A DNA stretch of 64,000 nt. It comes from Paludibaculum fermentans (GTDB lineage: Bacteria > Acidobacteriota > Terriglobia > Bryobacterales > Bryobacteraceae). Location of the stretch: positions 6,277,501 through 6,341,500 of the forward strand of contig NZ_CP063849.1 of the NCBI RefSeq assembly GCF_015277775.1, read 5' to 3'. A program made the position numbers and the translations under genes. The notes under the pieces are model-generated. The model was not told the DNA's origin, ran no database searches, and saw only the letters and a list, made by a program, of their open reading frames with translations. Positions 12,517-19,749 of this stretch are shown here, in pieces. Positions within the stretch are counted from its first letter, which is position 1. Each line of letters begins with the position of its first letter.

Positions 12517-12960
12517 ATGAGCAACCTGGAGAATCCTAAAAACGTGATCGTGGACGAGTACCTCGAATCGAGCTTGGACAGCGTCGATTCCAGCGAGGAA
12601 CGGGCCAAGGTCGCCGCCGAGCAAGTTGGCTTGCCGGAGGACGACGCATATCAGGTTGGTTACGCTGTCAGGGAAGCCATGGTCAACGCAATCGTCCATG
12701 GCAACCGTTACAGCGCAAACAAGCGTGTGCACTTCGTACTAAGCCGTACGGAATCCTCCATCCAGGTTCTGATTGAGGACGAGGGAACGGGCTTCCTGCC
12801 CGAACGCCAGGCCGATCCGCTGGCGGAAGAGAACTTGCTTAGCCAATCAGGCCGCGGCATCATGATCATCCGTTCCTTTGTGGACGAGTTCGTGATTGAG
12901 AAGGCGGAGCACGGCGGTACCCGGGTTGTGCTCCGGAAAACGATTCCTCCGGGAACTTAA
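12517..12960 (+). CDS. RsbW/SpoIIAB-like anti-sigma serine kinase (HATPase_c_2)
   Basis: 147 residues, typical of the family. ATPase motifs: N-box EAMVNAIVHGN (53-63), G1 box DEGTGF (88-93) and G2 box GRGIMII (112-118). Such kinases bind a sigma factor or another partner and phosphorylate a STAS antagonist, which is the next gene (41 bases downstream). The order kinase-then-antagonist is the reverse of the classical rsbV-rsbW order. No sigma factor or PP2C phosphatase is adjacent, so the partner protein must be encoded elsewhere. Cytoplasmic; no membrane segment. Confidence 0.88.
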   Translation: MSNLENPKNVIVDEYLESSLDSVDSSEERAKVAAEQVGLPEDDAYQVGYAVREAMVNAIVHGNRYSANKRVHFVLSRTESSIQVLIEDEGTGFLPERQADPLAEENLLSQSGRGIMIIRSFVDEFVIEKAEHGGTRVVLRKTIPPGT

Positions 12961-13001
12961 TTGCTGTTTGGGACTCCAATTGACGAGGGGGTATTAGAGA
13001 A

Positions 13002-13346
13002 GTGAGTGTAAAACTGACCACGCGCCAGGTTGGTGATGTAACTGTCATCGACGCCGCCGGCCGCATTACGTTGGGTGAGGGATCCTCCACCTTCCGTGAC
13101 TCCATCAAGGATCTGACGACCAAGGGGCACAAGAAGGTGCTGCTCAACCTCGCCGATGTGAGCTACATCGACAGCTCCGGAATCGGTGAGCTGGTGAGCG
13201 GCTTCACGACCGTCTCCAACGCCGGTGGCAACCTGAAGCTGCTGAATCTGACCAAACGAATCCACGATCTTCTGCAGATCACCAAGTTGTACACGATTTT
13301 CGAAGTGTTCGACGACGAAGCAAAGGGACTGGCGAGCTTTAATTAG
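13002..13346 (+). CDS. STAS-domain anti-sigma factor antagonist (RsbV/SpoIIAA-like)
   Basis: 114 residues starting at a GTG. The motif YIDSSGIGEL places the phosphorylatable Ser at 58, directly after D57, the same position as in SpoIIAA. The rest follows the STAS fold: N-terminal strands TTRQVGDVTVIDAAGRI, helix SSTFRDSIKDL, and C-terminal LKLLNLTKRIHDLLQITKL. When unphosphorylated it should sequester the RsbW-like kinase encoded just upstream and so free that kinase's target. The C-terminal end is standard for the family. No ribosome site stronger than AGAGAAG is seen. Confidence 0.92.
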   Translation: MSVKLTTRQVGDVTVIDAAGRITLGEGSSTFRDSIKDLTTKGHKKVLLNLADVSYIDSSGIGELVSGFTTVSNAGGNLKLLNLTKRIHDLLQITKLYTIFEVFDDEAKGLASFN

Positions 13347-13381
13347 CCAAGGCACAGGCCCTCGCTGAGCCGAATCCGGCA

Positions 13382-14050
13382 ATGCCTGCCGCCAAGATCC
13401 GCAGTGTCATCATCGCCGAGGAGCTCGCGCTGTTTCGCGACGGCATCGCCGCGCTGTGCGAGCTCTCCGGCCGTTTTCACGTGGTAGGCTGCACCTCGGA
13501 CGGCGAGCAGGCCTGGAAGCTGCTCGAAGAGAAAACCCCCGACGTCGTCCTTGTTGACCTTCAGATTCCCCAGCTCCATTCCCTCGAAATTGCAAAGCGG
13601 CTGACTGAGCCGGGTGACGGCATGCGCCCGGTACCGACTCGTTGCGTGATCCTGGCAATGCGCCGCGACCGCAAGACCGTGCTTGAGGTGCTGCGAGCCG
13701 GCGCGCAGGGTTATCTGCTGAAAACGAGCACCGGTGCCCAACTCGTCGATTGCCTCGAACAGGTCATTGAAGGGGGCATTTATGTCTCCCCCGCGGTGGA
13801 TGTTCAAAGCCTGTTCGCACCCGAAAAACGTGGCATGGTGGAGGACCCCATCTCACGCCTGAGCGCCAGGGAGTTTCAGGTCTTCTCCCTTCTCGTGGAA
13901 GGGGTTCGCGCCAAAGAAATTGCGGCGCGGCTCCAGCTGAGTCCCAAAACCGTGGATACCTATCGGTCTAATCTGATGAAAAAATTAGACATCCACGACA
14001 TTCCGGGCTTGGTCAAGTTTGCCATTCAGCATCAGATCATCCCCGCCTGA
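13382..14050 (+). CDS. NarL/LuxR-family response regulator with altered acidic pocket
   Basis: 222 residues: receiver domain about 6-125 and LuxR helix-turn-helix about 158-215 (LSAREFQVFSLLVEGVRAKEIAARL, SPKTVDTYRSNLMKKL). Phosphoacceptor D59 (VVLVDLQIP) and K114 (GYLLKTS) are present, but the usual acidic pair is E13-E14 instead of Asp-Asp, and the conserved Ser/Thr is A92. Glu pairs can still bind metal, but loss of the Ser/Thr suggests altered or absent phospho-switching. It starts 35 bases after the STAS gene and no kinase is adjacent. Function in the partner-switch cluster is inferred from proximity only. Confidence 0.88.
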   Translation: MPAAKIRSVIIAEELALFRDGIAALCELSGRFHVVGCTSDGEQAWKLLEEKTPDVVLVDLQIPQLHSLEIAKRLTEPGDGMRPVPTRCVILAMRRDRKTVLEVLRAGAQGYLLKTSTGAQLVDCLEQVIEGGIYVSPAVDVQSLFAPEKRGMVEDPISRLSAREFQVFSLLVEGVRAKEIAARLQLSPKTVDTYRSNLMKKLDIHDIPGLVKFAIQHQIIPA

Positions 14051-16006: not shown

Positions 16007-16042
16007 TCCGTTTACACTCCGTTTACCTGACTGCGCTATTCC
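16007..16042 (+). promoter_or_regulatory. GTTTA direct-repeat box plus -10 element, promoter of the PhoB-like regulator operon
   Basis: TCCGTTTAC occurs twice, at 16007-16015 and 16018-16026, exactly 11 bases apart. Nine bases after the second repeat is CTATTC (16036-16041). Direct repeats of 11-base period about 10 bases before a -10 are the signature of PhoB/OmpR-type activation. The same arrangement precedes the exporter gene at 17818. It probably mediates autoregulation. Confidence 0.6.
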
Positions 16043-16081
16043 TCATACTAGGCGCCCTGCTGTGCCGCCGCTTCCGATCCG

Positions 16082-16753
16082 ATGAGCAAAATCCTGGTAG
16101 TCGACGACGATCCGAATATCCGAGAGCTGGTCAGGATCTTCCTGGAGCCGGAAGGCCTCGATGTCTTCGAAGCCTGTGATGGCTACGATGCCCTCGCCCG
16201 GCTCGAAACCGTCAAGGCCGACATGGTCATCCTGGATGTCATGATGCCCAACATGGATGGTTGGGAGCTATGCCGCCGCCTGCGCCTGGCTGGCGACTTT
16301 CCCCTGCTGATCATCACGGCCAAGGGCGAAACCAGCCAGAAGGTGAAGGGCTTTCAGCTGGGCACCGACGACTACCTTGTGAAACCCTTCGAACCCGTGG
16401 AACTCGTGGCCCGTGTCAAGGCTCTACTGAAGCGCTACCGGGTGGCCAGTTCCCAGACGGTGCAGGTCGGCGGCCTGACCATGGATCGCAAGACCCACGA
16501 GGCAGCGATCGCGGGCCGGCCGCTCAACCTACCGCTGAAGGAATTCGAACTTCTGTTCGAGCTGGCGAGCTACGCGGGCAAGACGCTTTCCCGGTCGAAG
16601 CTCATCGAGGATATCTGGGGCTACGACTTCGAGGGCAATGAACGCACCCTCGATGTTCACATCAACCGCCTCCGGGAACGCTTTCCCGAAGCCCAGGCGC
16701 CCTTCCGCATCAAGACCATCCGAGGACTCGGCTACCGCCTGGAGGCAGCCTGA
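16082..16753 (+). CDS. OmpR/PhoB-family response regulator
   Basis: 223 residues. Receiver domain 1-118 with D8-D9, phosphoacceptor D52 (MVILDVMMPNMDG), T79 and K101 (DDYLVKPF), all conserved. Winged-helix DNA-binding domain about 128-222, with the LPLKEFELLFELAS segment and the recognition-helix region GNERTLDVHINRLRERF, ending in IKTIRGLGYRLE. The stop codon overlaps the kinase start (ATGA). It binds direct repeats in this family; the repeated GTTTA element before its own gene and before the downstream exporter is the likely target. Confidence 0.95.
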   Translation: MSKILVVDDDPNIRELVRIFLEPEGLDVFEACDGYDALARLETVKADMVILDVMMPNMDGWELCRRLRLAGDFPLLIITAKGETSQKVKGFQLGTDDYLVKPFEPVELVARVKALLKRYRVASSQTVQVGGLTMDRKTHEAAIAGRPLNLPLKEFELLFELASYAGKTLSRSKLIEDIWGYDFEGNERTLDVHINRLRERFPEAQAPFRIKTIRGLGYRLEAA

Positions 16754-17805
16754 TGAGAAACCGGCTGGCATTCCGCCATTGGTTTCGCGCCTTCGCTTCC
16801 CTGGCGTTCTTCGCCCTCGTTCTGTGCCTGGCCTTCTACATCACCGCCTTCGTCTATGCCCGCACCGGCTGGAAGCCTCACGCCGTGCTGGCCCTGCTGG
16901 TCAATGCCTTCCTCGGAATCATCCTCATGGTCGCCTTGGTGGCCATCGCCGGCACCGTGATTCACAGGCGCCACCGGACGAAGAATCCCCTCTCCGTCAT
17001 TACAGAAGCGCTCGAGCGAATCGCCACGGGCGATTTCACTACCCGGCTGGACGAGAACCTGCGCTCGCACGGAGTGGTGGGCGAGCTGGTGCAGAGCGTG
17101 AACCACATGGCCACTCGTCTCGACGAGATGGAAAAGCTGCGTCAGGAGTTTGTCTCAAATGTGTCGCACGAAATTCAGTCGCCCCTCACCTCCATCCGGG
17201 GCTTTGCGGCTGCCCTGCAGCGGGATAATGTGAGCCTGGAGGACCGTCTCCACTACCTCGAGATCATCGAAGCGGAGAGCCTCCGGCTGTCCAGGTTGAG
17301 TGAGAACCTGCTCAAGCTCGCGTCCCTCGACTCGGAACAGACCCGGCTGGCCCCCACGACCTACCGGCTCGATGTGCAGCTCCGGAACCTGATTCTGGCC
17401 TGCGAAACCCAATGGACCGCCAAGGACATTGAGATGGAGGTAGCGCTCGACGAGGCCGCCATCTCGGCCGACGAAGACCTGCTCAGCCAGGTCTGGATCA
17501 ACCTGATCCACAACAGCATCAAGTTCACCCCGCCCGGAGGCACCATTCACGTCGGCCTGCACCGGAAAGGCGATCGCTGGGAGGTGAGTGTTGCCGATAC
17601 CGGGATCGGCATCGCCGAAGAAGACCTGCCGCGGATCTTCGAGCGGTTCTACAAAGCCGATCCTTCGCGCCGCCACTCCGCCGGAGGCAATGGACTGGGC
17701 CTCGCCATCGCCCAGCGCGTCGTCGAGATCCACAGCGGAGCGATCGCGGTGCGCAGCCAGCCCGGCGCGGGCGCGGAATTCACCGTCAGTCTGCCTGCCG
17801 TGTAA
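16753..17805 (+). CDS. HAMP-containing sensor histidine kinase
   Basis: 350 residues. Two membrane spans (about 14-36 and 43-69) flank only a few residues, so there is almost no periplasmic sensor domain; signal sensing must be within the membrane or through a partner such as the downstream exporter. HAMP about 75-125; HisKA with H139 in SNVSHEIQSPLTSIRG; HATPase with N-box NLIHNSIKF (about 250-258), DTGIGI (282-287) and GNGLGL (312-317). Translationally coupled to the regulator by an ATGA overlap. The phosphoacceptor motif has Gln-Ser (HEIQSP) instead of the common HELRTP. Confidence 0.94.
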   Translation: MRNRLAFRHWFRAFASLAFFALVLCLAFYITAFVYARTGWKPHAVLALLVNAFLGIILMVALVAIAGTVIHRRHRTKNPLSVITEALERIATGDFTTRLDENLRSHGVVGELVQSVNHMATRLDEMEKLRQEFVSNVSHEIQSPLTSIRGFAAALQRDNVSLEDRLHYLEIIEAESLRLSRLSENLLKLASLDSEQTRLAPTTYRLDVQLRNLILACETQWTAKDIEMEVALDEAAISADEDLLSQVWINLIHNSIKFTPPGGTIHVGLHRKGDRWEVSVADTGIGIAEEDLPRIFERFYKADPSRRHSAGGNGLGLAIAQRVVEIHSGAIAVRSQPGAGAEFTVSLPAV

Positions 17806-17817
17806 CATCCCGGCCTT

Positions 17818-17850
17818 GTTTAAATTCAGTTTATGCGCCGCCGCTAATCT
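17818..17850 (+). promoter_or_regulatory. GTTTA direct-repeat box plus -10 element, promoter of the MsbA-like exporter
   Basis: GTTTA at 17818-17822 and 17829-17833, 11 bases apart, then nine bases after GTTTAT the sequence CTAATC (17844-17849). Position for position this matches the box at 16010-16041. The element starts 13 bases after the kinase stop, so the exporter can be transcribed separately but under the same regulator. Confidence 0.6.
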
Positions 17851-17868: not shown

Positions 17869-19749
17869 ATGCTGCATCGACCAGGCGCACACCATCCAAA
17901 CCGCTTCGCCGCGCCATCCGAAAATGAACCACCTGTCCAGCTCTCGACTCTTCCGTGGAAACGCCTGCTCGCTTACTTGCAGCCCTATCGGGGACGCATG
18001 GCCGTAGCCATCCTCGCGCTGCTGGGTTCGTCCGCGCTGGGGCTCGCTTTCCCCATGGTGATCGTCCGCCTGCTCGACTCCGCCACACGCACCCACAGCC
18101 TCTCTTCCCTCAACGGACTGGCCCTGCTGCTGCTGGGCATCTTCCTCACCCAGGCCGCGCTGTCGTTCCTCCAGTCCATCATGCTGGCCGTCATCGGCGA
18201 GAACATCGTCTGCGACCTGCGCACCACCCTATACACCCACCTGCACCGCCAGTCACTCGACTTCTACTCGGGACGGCGTGTCGGCGAAATCGTATCCCGA
18301 CTCTCCAGTGACGTGACGCAGATGCGCACCGTTCTGACAAGCAACATCACCTCCCTGCTCAGCCAGAGCGTGTCCCTCATCGGAGCGCTTGTCATCGTTC
18401 TCTCCATCAACATTCAGCTCTCACTGTTCATCCTGGCGCTGGTTCCGCCGCTGGTCCTGCTCGTGGCGTTCTTTGGACGCCGGATCCAGAAGTCCAGCAC
18501 GGGCCTCCAGGATCACCTCGCCGACGCCACCACCGTCGCGGAAGAGGCTCTGCAGGGCATCCGCGTCGTGAAGAGCTTCGGCCAGGAGCAGCACGAGACC
18601 ACCCGTTACGGGGCAGCCGCCCGGAAGGCGCTCTCGGCCTCCCTGCGCATGGCCTTCCTTCACTCTTCCTTCTCCTCGGTGATGATGTTCCTGGGCTTCG
18701 GCACCATCTCCGCCATCATGTGGTACGGCGGGCGCGAAGTGATCGCCGGACGCCTCTCCCTCGCTATGATCAACGGCTTCCTGATGTACGGCATCATGAT
18801 CGCCGGCAGTCTCGGCGGCCTCGCCGGTCTCTACGCCCAGTTCCGTGCGGCCATCGGCGGTGTCCAGCGTGTCTTTGAAATCCTCGACCTCCATCCCACC
18901 GTGCAGGACACGCCGGGCGCCGTAACCCTCACCGGCACGCAGGGCCACCTCCGCTTCGACAACGTGACGTTCCACTACGAACCCAATGTGCCGGTCATCA
19001 AGGGCATTATGCTCGATATCCAACCGGGCGAGATCCTGGCTCTGGTCGGCCCCAGCGGAGCAGGCAAGAGCACGCTGTTCAACCTCATCCCGCGCTTCTA
19101 CGATCCAGCCGGCGGCAGCGTCCAGCTCGATGGCCGCGACCTGCGCTCCGTCACCCAGCACAGCCTGCGCGAACAGATGGCCCTGGTACCGCAGGAGACC
19201 ATGCTCTTTGGCGGGACCATCCGCGAGAACATTCTGTACGGACGGCTGGGCGCCACGGAAGAGCAGATGATCGCGGCGGCCCGCTCCGCCAACGCCCACG
19301 ATTTCATCATGGAGTTCCCCCAGCAGTACGAAACGGTGGTCGGCGAACGCGGAGCCAAACTCAGCGGCGGCCAGCGCCAACGCATCGCCGTGGCCCGTGC
19401 CCTTCTCAAGAACCCCCGCATCCTGCTGTTGGACGAGGCAACCAGCTCGCTCGACAACGACTCGGAAGGCCTCGTGCAGCAGGCGCTCAATCACCTGATG
19501 CAGGGGCGCACCACCGTGATCATCGCCCATCGCCTCAGCACCATCAAGGTGGCCCATCGCATCGCCGTCATGGACGGCGGCCGCATCGTGGAGCTAGGCA
19601 CCCACCGCGAACTCATGGCCCTCGATGGTCTGTACGCCCACCTCTACTCGATGCAGTTTCCGGACAGTTCCGTGGCCACCCCGCCCCATCACTCAGAAGT
19701 CCGCAGGATGCCGCCAGCCAGCATTCTGGCCCCCGCCGCAGCCGATTAA
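17869..19749 (+). CDS. ABC exporter, fused membrane and ATPase domains (MsbA-like)
   Basis: 626 residues. Type-I exporter transmembrane domain about 40-330 (six spans), nucleotide-binding domain about 360-600. Walker A GPSGAGKST starts near residue 394, the Q-loop is VPQETMLFGG, LSGGQRQRIAVARALL lies near 498 and Walker B LLLDEATSSLD near 521. Works as a homodimer and moves lipids, lipid-linked sugars or hydrophobic drugs outward. The N-terminal 25 residues are unlike the family but no later start preserves the first elbow helix. It lies 63 bases downstream of the kinase with its own GTTTA box. The C-terminal 30 residues after the ATPase are Pro/Ala-rich. Confidence 0.93.
   Translation: MLHRPGAHHPNRFAAPSENEPPVQLSTLPWKRLLAYLQPYRGRMAVAILALLGSSALGLAFPMVIVRLLDSATRTHSLSSLNGLALLLLGIFLTQAALSFLQSIMLAVIGENIVCDLRTTLYTHLHRQSLDFYSGRRVGEIVSRLSSDVTQMRTVLTSNITSLLSQSVSLIGALVIVLSINIQLSLFILALVPPLVLLVAFFGRRIQKSSTGLQDHLADATTVAEEALQGIRVVKSFGQEQHETTRYGAAARKALSASLRMAFLHSSFSSVMMFLGFGTISAIMWYGGREVIAGRLSLAMINGFLMYGIMIAGSLGGLAGLYAQFRAAIGGVQRVFEILDLHPTVQDTPGAVTLTGTQGHLRFDNVTFHYEPNVPVIKGIMLDIQPGEILALVGPSGAGKSTLFNLIPRFYDPAGGSVQLDGRDLRSVTQHSLREQMALVPQETMLFGGTIRENILYGRLGATEEQMIAAARSANAHDFIMEFPQQYETVVGERGAKLSGGQRQRIAVARALLKNPRILLLDEATSSLDNDSEGLVQQALNHLMQGRTTVIIAHRLSTIKVAHRIAVMDGGRIVELGTHRELMALDGLYAHLYSMQFPDSSVATPPHHSEVRRMPPASILAPAAAD

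Follow-up and report, generated by a model that had tools for sequence, protein, structure and literature searches.

Matching direct-repeat boxes precede a probable HssR/HitR-type two-component operon and an ABCB-type exporter gene in Paludibaculum fermentans

The window analyzed here is a stretch of 64,000 nucleotides from Paludibaculum fermentans (NZ_CP063849.1), whose whole genome of 9.53 Mb is designated G000. A response regulator gene, a sensor histidine kinase gene and an exporter gene lie on its plus strand, together with two promoter boxes, as follows.

16010..16025, plus strand: operator 1, direct repeat GTTTA-CACTCC-GTTTA upstream of the regulator gene (exact match; retained in congeners G002 and G006)
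16037..16042, plus strand: predicted -10 element TATTCC, 11 bases past operator 1 (column conservation in 69 boxes, and position)
16082..16753, plus strand: response regulator gene (Pfam Response_reg and Trans_reg_C; Asp52 as presumed phosphosite, Asn195 in the predicted recognition helix)
16753..17805, plus strand: sensor histidine kinase gene, intramembrane-sensing layout (Pfam HAMP, HisKA and HATPase_c; hydropathy scan)
17818..17833, plus strand: operator 2, direct repeat GTTTA-AATTCA-GTTTA upstream of the exporter gene (exact match; retained in G002 and G006)
17845..17850, plus strand: predicted -10 element TAATCT, 11 bases past operator 2 (column conservation in 69 boxes, and position)
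17869..19749, plus strand: ABCB-type (P-glycoprotein/MsbA-like) half-exporter gene, 626 amino acids (Pfam ABC_membrane and ABC_tran)

A preliminary description of this DNA had placed GTTTA at 16010, 16021, 17818 and 17829, with CTATTC or CTAATC nine bases past GTTTAY, and all of these elements were found as described. Beside the module, at 12517-14050 of the window, the frame at 12517-12960 resembles by eye an anti-sigma-type ATPase, that at 13002-13346 a STAS-type antagonist and that at 13382-14050 a NarL-type response regulator.

With up to three mismatches allowed, the combined pattern GTTTA-N6-GTTTAY-N9-CTAWTC matched the window twice, where shuffled sequence averaged 0.04 matches, and the scan of the whole 9.53 Mb returned two exact matches and none for the reversed pattern. 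The genome has a two-site set of boxes, and this near-private set agrees with the earlier proposal that the regulator and the exporter are linked targets. The bare core GTTTA-N6-GTTTA showed no excess genome-wide (three matches against four for the reversed control), which is what could be said for reading the boxes as chance repeats; the third core match (G000:C1:5614508) is itself taken as chance, because it lies antisense within a long open frame and has no -10 element. When the 17-base box was relaxed to three mismatches, 29+34 matches were obtained in G000 against 42+52 for the reversed control, so degenerate sites are indistinguishable from noise, and a larger site set in this genome was dropped. 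With box and -10 element combined at up to two mismatches, G000 retains just its two known sites, and the control gives one match in G002 and one in G006.

Kinase matches at E <= 1e-50 were present in 4 of 61 genomes, namely the source genome itself, its congeners G002 (84%) and G006 (73%), and G009 from another genus (37%); the genus thus has carriers in three of its nine genomes, and of the remaining six several are incomplete. Both congeners that were aligned with the window, G002 and G006, keep the genes and both boxes, and most inner letters of the boxes are conserved where much of the flanking spacer has diverged. G006 has a further strict site (N11 + TACTCT) upstream of a gene whose translation looks, by eye, like a SAM-methyltransferase, so the site set is not always private. 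Another box in G006 (G006:C3:1673251, locus L020), followed by N12 and TATTCT, lies upstream of a gene that resembles, again by eye, a TolC-type outer-membrane protein.

Across 396 genomes of the acidobacterial phylum, the strict box matched in two (the source genome and G134), with two control matches as well; the strict pattern misses operator 1 because the -10 element of that operator ends in C. The G134 site, GTTTATGTTTGGTTTA, looks like chance, and a phylum-wide acidobacterial feature is unsupported. In the regulator tree, which is mainly Bacillota, the acidobacterial rows make up a single cluster, next to one Paenibacillaceae MAG row and then Chloroflexota. This placement, together with the patchy presence of the kinase in the genus and the scarcity of the strict box in the phylum, makes it likely that the module was transferred into the lineage of P. 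fermentans.

To cover distant relatives, one genome per species was scanned for the regulator, and the best 80 of 570 confirmed candidate loci (67-90% identity; 665 kb in all; L051 being congener G002) were retained, from Acidobacteriota, Chloroflexota and Bacillota. Exact GTTTA-N6-GTTTA occurs 69 times in 57 of these best 80 loci, 67 times on the strand of the regulator, counts that are not independent because many of the loci are closely related. In the same 665 kb, the reversed pattern matched once, spacers of 2-5 and 7-12 bases gave 0-5 matches each, and 20 Markov simulations gave 0-2; the six-base spacer of the distant boxes is mostly AATTCA. Allowing near matches adds 14 loci, for a site in 71 of the best 80; of the nine loci lacking one, seven carry a GTTCA-type box followed by a -10 element, and L115 and L128 have no box of either type. 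A scan of 14 whole genomes with the strict box plus -10 element yielded 25 matches in 12 of them and none for the control. Judged by the downstream gene, three of the 25 sites look like chance (L132, L136, L153), and one (L142) precedes a gene without assignment. As to whether the motif falls at random in coding sequence, one of 66 scored distant boxes (L123) was flagged inside a longer open frame.

The position of the -10 element was examined in 69 boxes, comprising the 67 on the regulator's strand in the best 80 of 570 loci and the two of the window. In these, base 27 is T in 69/69, base 28 is A in 68/69 and base 32 is T in 64/69, which defines a -10 element TANNNT 11 bases after the second repeat, although that of operator 1 ends in C, not T. 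The box geometry and the fixed -10 element are thus plain from the alignment. The fixed distance asserted in the preliminary description stands, and its exact frame does not: the element is better placed one base to the right, as TATTCC and TAATCT. Since the boxes, with the -10 element at its fixed place, recur beside orthologous regulators of three phyla, and the box changes together with residue 195 of the regulator (see below), the reading as chance repeats is hardly credible.

Downstream frames were scored for 66 of the 67 plus-strand boxes of the best 80 of 570 loci. The following gene is a regulator in 30 cases, an ABCB exporter in 23, a DrrA-type ABC ATPase in 3, a DHA2 MFS transporter in 3 and an MFS-like fragment in 1. 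The other six boxes precede two diacylglycerol-glucosyltransferase-like genes and one each of a beta-lactamase-family hydrolase, an alpha/beta hydrolase, an FAD monooxygenase and an unnamed gene; the names at L062, L107 and L093 were given by similarity or by eye. The 67th box, the third site of L094, is followed by an ABCB exporter on a longer sequence (L154). Gene order varies between box-regulator-kinase-box-exporter and box-exporter-regulator-kinase. In the loci sampled, the regulator-operator pair persists from phylum to phylum and the sensors and pumps are swapped.

Several of these loci deserve individual description. In an Anaerolineaceae MAG (L094:5890-8700, with L140, L149 and L154), three boxes stand in series on the same strand before an alpha/beta hydrolase, an FAD monooxygenase and an ABCB exporter, resembling a small detoxification cluster under one regulator; the monooxygenase matches a rifampin-monooxygenase model below its cut-off. 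At L091 (+2357) and L103 (-3072 from the regulator), boxes precede diacylglycerol-glucosyltransferase-like genes, that is, membrane-lipid enzymes rather than pumps, and the kinases of these two loci have about six hydrophobic stretches and share the box. At L066:5931-6554 (and L142), a box lies upstream of a 208-aa protein without a match in Pfam (threshold 0.001) or NCBIfam (threshold 1e-20).

The regulator belongs to the OmpR/PhoB superfamily (Pfam Response_reg 105.9 bits, Trans_reg_C 81.5 bits). The boxes had been described as PhoB-like, and the 11-bp repeats at a fixed distance from the -10 element were confirmed; that the regulator is a PhoB is rejected by its family score (201.5 bits against a cut-off of 296.2, NCBIfam TIGR02154), the closest characterized regulators being HssR and HitR. 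Identity reaches 48.2% with a Listeria HssR-type regulator and 42.5%, over 99% of the length, with the annotated S. aureus HssR, and the regulator and the HssR-type regulators are related on the tree, on long branches. In Listeria, the regulator and kinase lie directly upstream of an ABC permease/ATPase pair in a record without hss or hrt names; this is the order that excerpts of PMC6305404 report for hssRS-hrtAB, and lmo2583 is given as an HssR homologue in excerpts of PMC3001719. Upstream of the HrtBA-type pump, the Listeria spacer reads ATTCACATTCCGTTTA, followed by 11 bases and TAAACT, a box with the geometry of those in the window; in Priestia it reads ATTCACACTCCGTTCA, followed by 11 bases and TATGCT. 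According to excerpts of PMC6305404, which print no letters, four point changes in the Listeria hrtAB promoter repeat abolish heme induction, and by our reading the mutated repeat is the one identified here.

Compared with HssRS-HrtBA, then, the module shares a regulator 42-48% identical, the Listeria order regulator-kinase-box-pump, and the 11-bp repeat, 11 bases and -10 element. It differs in that the outside domain of HssS is large, the HrtBA pump is MacB-like, HssR has Lys at residue 195, and the HssRS-HrtBA box is mostly GTTCA-type (mixed GTTTA/GTTCA in Listeria) as against GTTTA in the window. For HitRS-HitPQ of Bacillus anthracis, which responds to envelope stress, excerpts of PMC3968170 describe HssRS as the nearest two-component system in its host and an HssR-like repeat before hitPQRS. 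The likeness to HitRS-HitPQ extends, as far as excerpted accounts describe that system, to a regulator of the HssR kind, a repeat before the transporter and two-component genes, and an intramembrane-sensing kinase whose outside loop is very short and whose helices are similarly placed. The HitRS-HitPQ transporter, in contrast, is predicted to be an ABC system made of two genes, where the window encodes an ABCB half-exporter, and the HitR operator was compared by description only. With positions matched through a fixed numbering offset, all six residues checked among those named as functional in HitR appear identical in the regulator, and four of the five named for HitS are present in the kinase, HitS Thr118 being Ala. 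The enterobacterial PhoP box TGTTTA-N5-TGTTTA (excerpts of PMC4832192) comes close in both half-site letters and period, but its regulator belongs to a different subgroup. The papers on HssR and HitR cited here concern Gram-positive pathogens, and among the full-text matches listed by our literature search no account of the present module appeared, although one in other words or outside that listing is possible. Two plasmid records look like misfiled chromosomal sequence: NZ_CP117981.1, a 4.7-kb S. aureus 'plasmid' that carries mqo and two small genes besides hssRS, and NZ_CP030101.1, a 2.9-Mb Listeria 'plasmid'.

The kinase has an intramembrane-sensing layout. Its hydrophobic stretches span residues 16-34 and 45-63 with about 10 residues between them, alongside a HAMP domain and His139 (hydropathy scan), so that the earlier picture of a sensor with almost no periplasmic part is upheld; the loop lies within the 25 residues that excerpts of PMC7790381 set for intramembrane-sensing kinases of the HitRS type. 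HitS itself is described there as intramembrane-sensing, with a 15-residue loop, and as answering envelope-acting compounds. HssS, by contrast, has its His at 248-249 and stretches near 8-27 and 163-183, and excerpts of PMC11237747 report for it an outside domain of 133 residues, a response to membrane heme, and constitutive activity of the form without that domain; the kinase of the window has no such large domain. Among 79 kinases read from the best 80 of 570 loci, 66 have the short form, two have about six hydrophobic stretches, two lack an H-box and nine have a longer N-terminal part of a size fit for an outside domain.

These observations bear directly on whether the module is a diderm HssRS, with a kinase that senses heme and an exporter that removes heme or porphyrin. 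The kinship of the regulator to HssR and the agreement of the box geometry with the Listeria pump promoter would suit such a role, but the HssS outside domain is missing, the pump is a single ABC_membrane plus ABC_tran protein rather than a MacB-like permease with a separate ATPase, and the partners of related regulators vary. That variety, which includes multidrug-type pumps, an FAD monooxygenase and glycolipid-synthase-like enzymes, fits a general role in chemical or envelope stress better than heme alone. On testing, both the sensor domain and the type of pump proved different, and the module is therefore set apart from HssRS itself; heme sensing, kept only as a rival since the HssS-type domain is missing, seems quite improbable.

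The exporter had been described as MsbA-like, with lipid export as one possible function. MsbA-related models are indeed its best family matches, which would suit a second MsbA in a lipid A or lipid flippase circuit whose kinase senses lipid load, but the scores stay below cut-off (MsbA_rel, 585.2 of 780.4 bits; MsbA, TIGR02203, 508.3 of 602 bits). Another gene of the genome scores higher on the MsbA model (554.4 bits), likewise below cut-off. However, no gene of this genome passes 602 bits, and the neighbours of that higher-scoring gene, yicC, gmk and coaBC, are not lipid A genes. Within the best 80 of 570 loci, identity to the exporter of the window is 61-89% in acidobacterial and some Chloroflexota loci and about 34-38% in those Paenibacillaceae loci that have one, and Chloroflexota exporters 61-66% identical have their own box. 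Chloroflexota are as a rule not known to have lipid A. The sub-cut-off score, the higher-scoring gene elsewhere and the boxed Chloroflexota exporters disfavour a lipid-export role, and lipid A flippase was set aside as the leading role; we consider a circuit of this kind very improbable.

A further alternative is a flux sensor similar to Bce-like modules (BceRSAB), in which the exporter itself would be the sensory partner of the kinase. An intramembrane-sensing kinase adjoins an ABC transporter here, as in those modules (PMC3023708), but a Bce-type permease with a large outside loop is absent, the architecture being ABCB only. The regulator-box pair is also found beside MFS pumps and ABC transporters of unrelated type, which leaves no single pump as a constant partner, and we judge this arrangement unlikely.

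We favour, with a probability of roughly 0.7, a two-component system of the HssR/HitR kind that responds to membrane stress and whose almost private targets are its own operon and the ABCB exporter. Having almost no outside part, the kinase would use its two helices to sense a signal located at or within the membrane and would phosphorylate Asp52 of the regulator, as in related families. By analogy with HssR, HitR and PhoB, the phosphorylated regulator would then bind the 11-bp direct repeats head-to-tail and recruit RNA polymerase to the -10 element eleven bases downstream. Operator 1 would provide self-activation of the regulator/kinase operon, and operator 2 activation of the exporter, which would probably clear a hydrophobic toxicant from the membrane. 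We infer the binding, activation, autoregulation, membrane-stress signal and toxicant export from sequence and from these relatives.

The letters of the operator vary together with one residue of the regulator. Residue 195 (DVHI-x-RLR) lies within helix 187-200, the predicted recognition helix (AlphaFold2; 27 sequences, mean pLDDT 81, pTM 0.55), and in the best 80 of 570 loci it is Asn in 64, Lys in 10, Arg in 3 and Ser in 3. When half-sites of these loci were scanned with any base allowed at the fourth place, the ten Lys loci read C in both halves at 10/10 sites, and the Asn loci read T in both at 63/69 (the rest being three TC, one CT, one AT and one TA). Ser loci gave three TT and two CT sites, one Arg locus (L073) reads GTTCA twice and the other two Arg loci have no site; a single site overall lay on the opposite strand. 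All regulator columns were then compared with box class in 55 TT and 13 CC rows, leaving out 17 of the 85 rows, whose box was of another class, missing or classed from background knowledge, and with the classes of the window, Listeria, Priestia and Alkalihalophilus assigned by hand. Among these rows, which are related to one another, residue 195 is the sole column without overlap between classes (Asn 53 and Ser 2 for TT; Lys 12 and Arg 1 for CC), the next best being 186. The Listeria regulator, outside this rule, has Lys195 yet a mixed CT box.

With residue 195 masked, the tree still shows the label strongly clustered, and many of its forks are weak. Because no more than two changes for Asn and one for Lys are demanded by its well-supported branches, the change of residue 195 and box may have been a single event. 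Direct base contact by residue 195 is plausible: in a K. pneumoniae PmrA-DNA model, His195, which aligns here with residue 195, contacts bases specifically (excerpts of PMC3973317), whereas in M. tuberculosis PhoP the aligned residue is not among the base contacts listed in excerpts of PMC4832192 and its neighbour is.

The same operator grammar, an 11-bp repeat, 11 bases and a -10 element, precedes exporters in three phyla among the loci sampled, and because it shows almost no background, pump genes can be assigned to sensors from sequence. More tentatively, and with somewhat less than even confidence, the loci suggest a transferable sensor-exporter cassette of Bacillota, Chloroflexota and Acidobacteriota, in which the regulator-operator pair is frozen, kinases and pumps are exchanged, and specificity would depend largely on residue 195, with Asn195 reading GTTTA and Lys195, as in HssR, reading GTTCA. 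If true, this would be a natural one-residue, one-base operator switch that could insulate the cassette from HssR-type systems. Since a single column of the protein varies in step with a single base of the DNA, residue 195 offers a clean test of how operator specificity changes in OmpR-type regulators.
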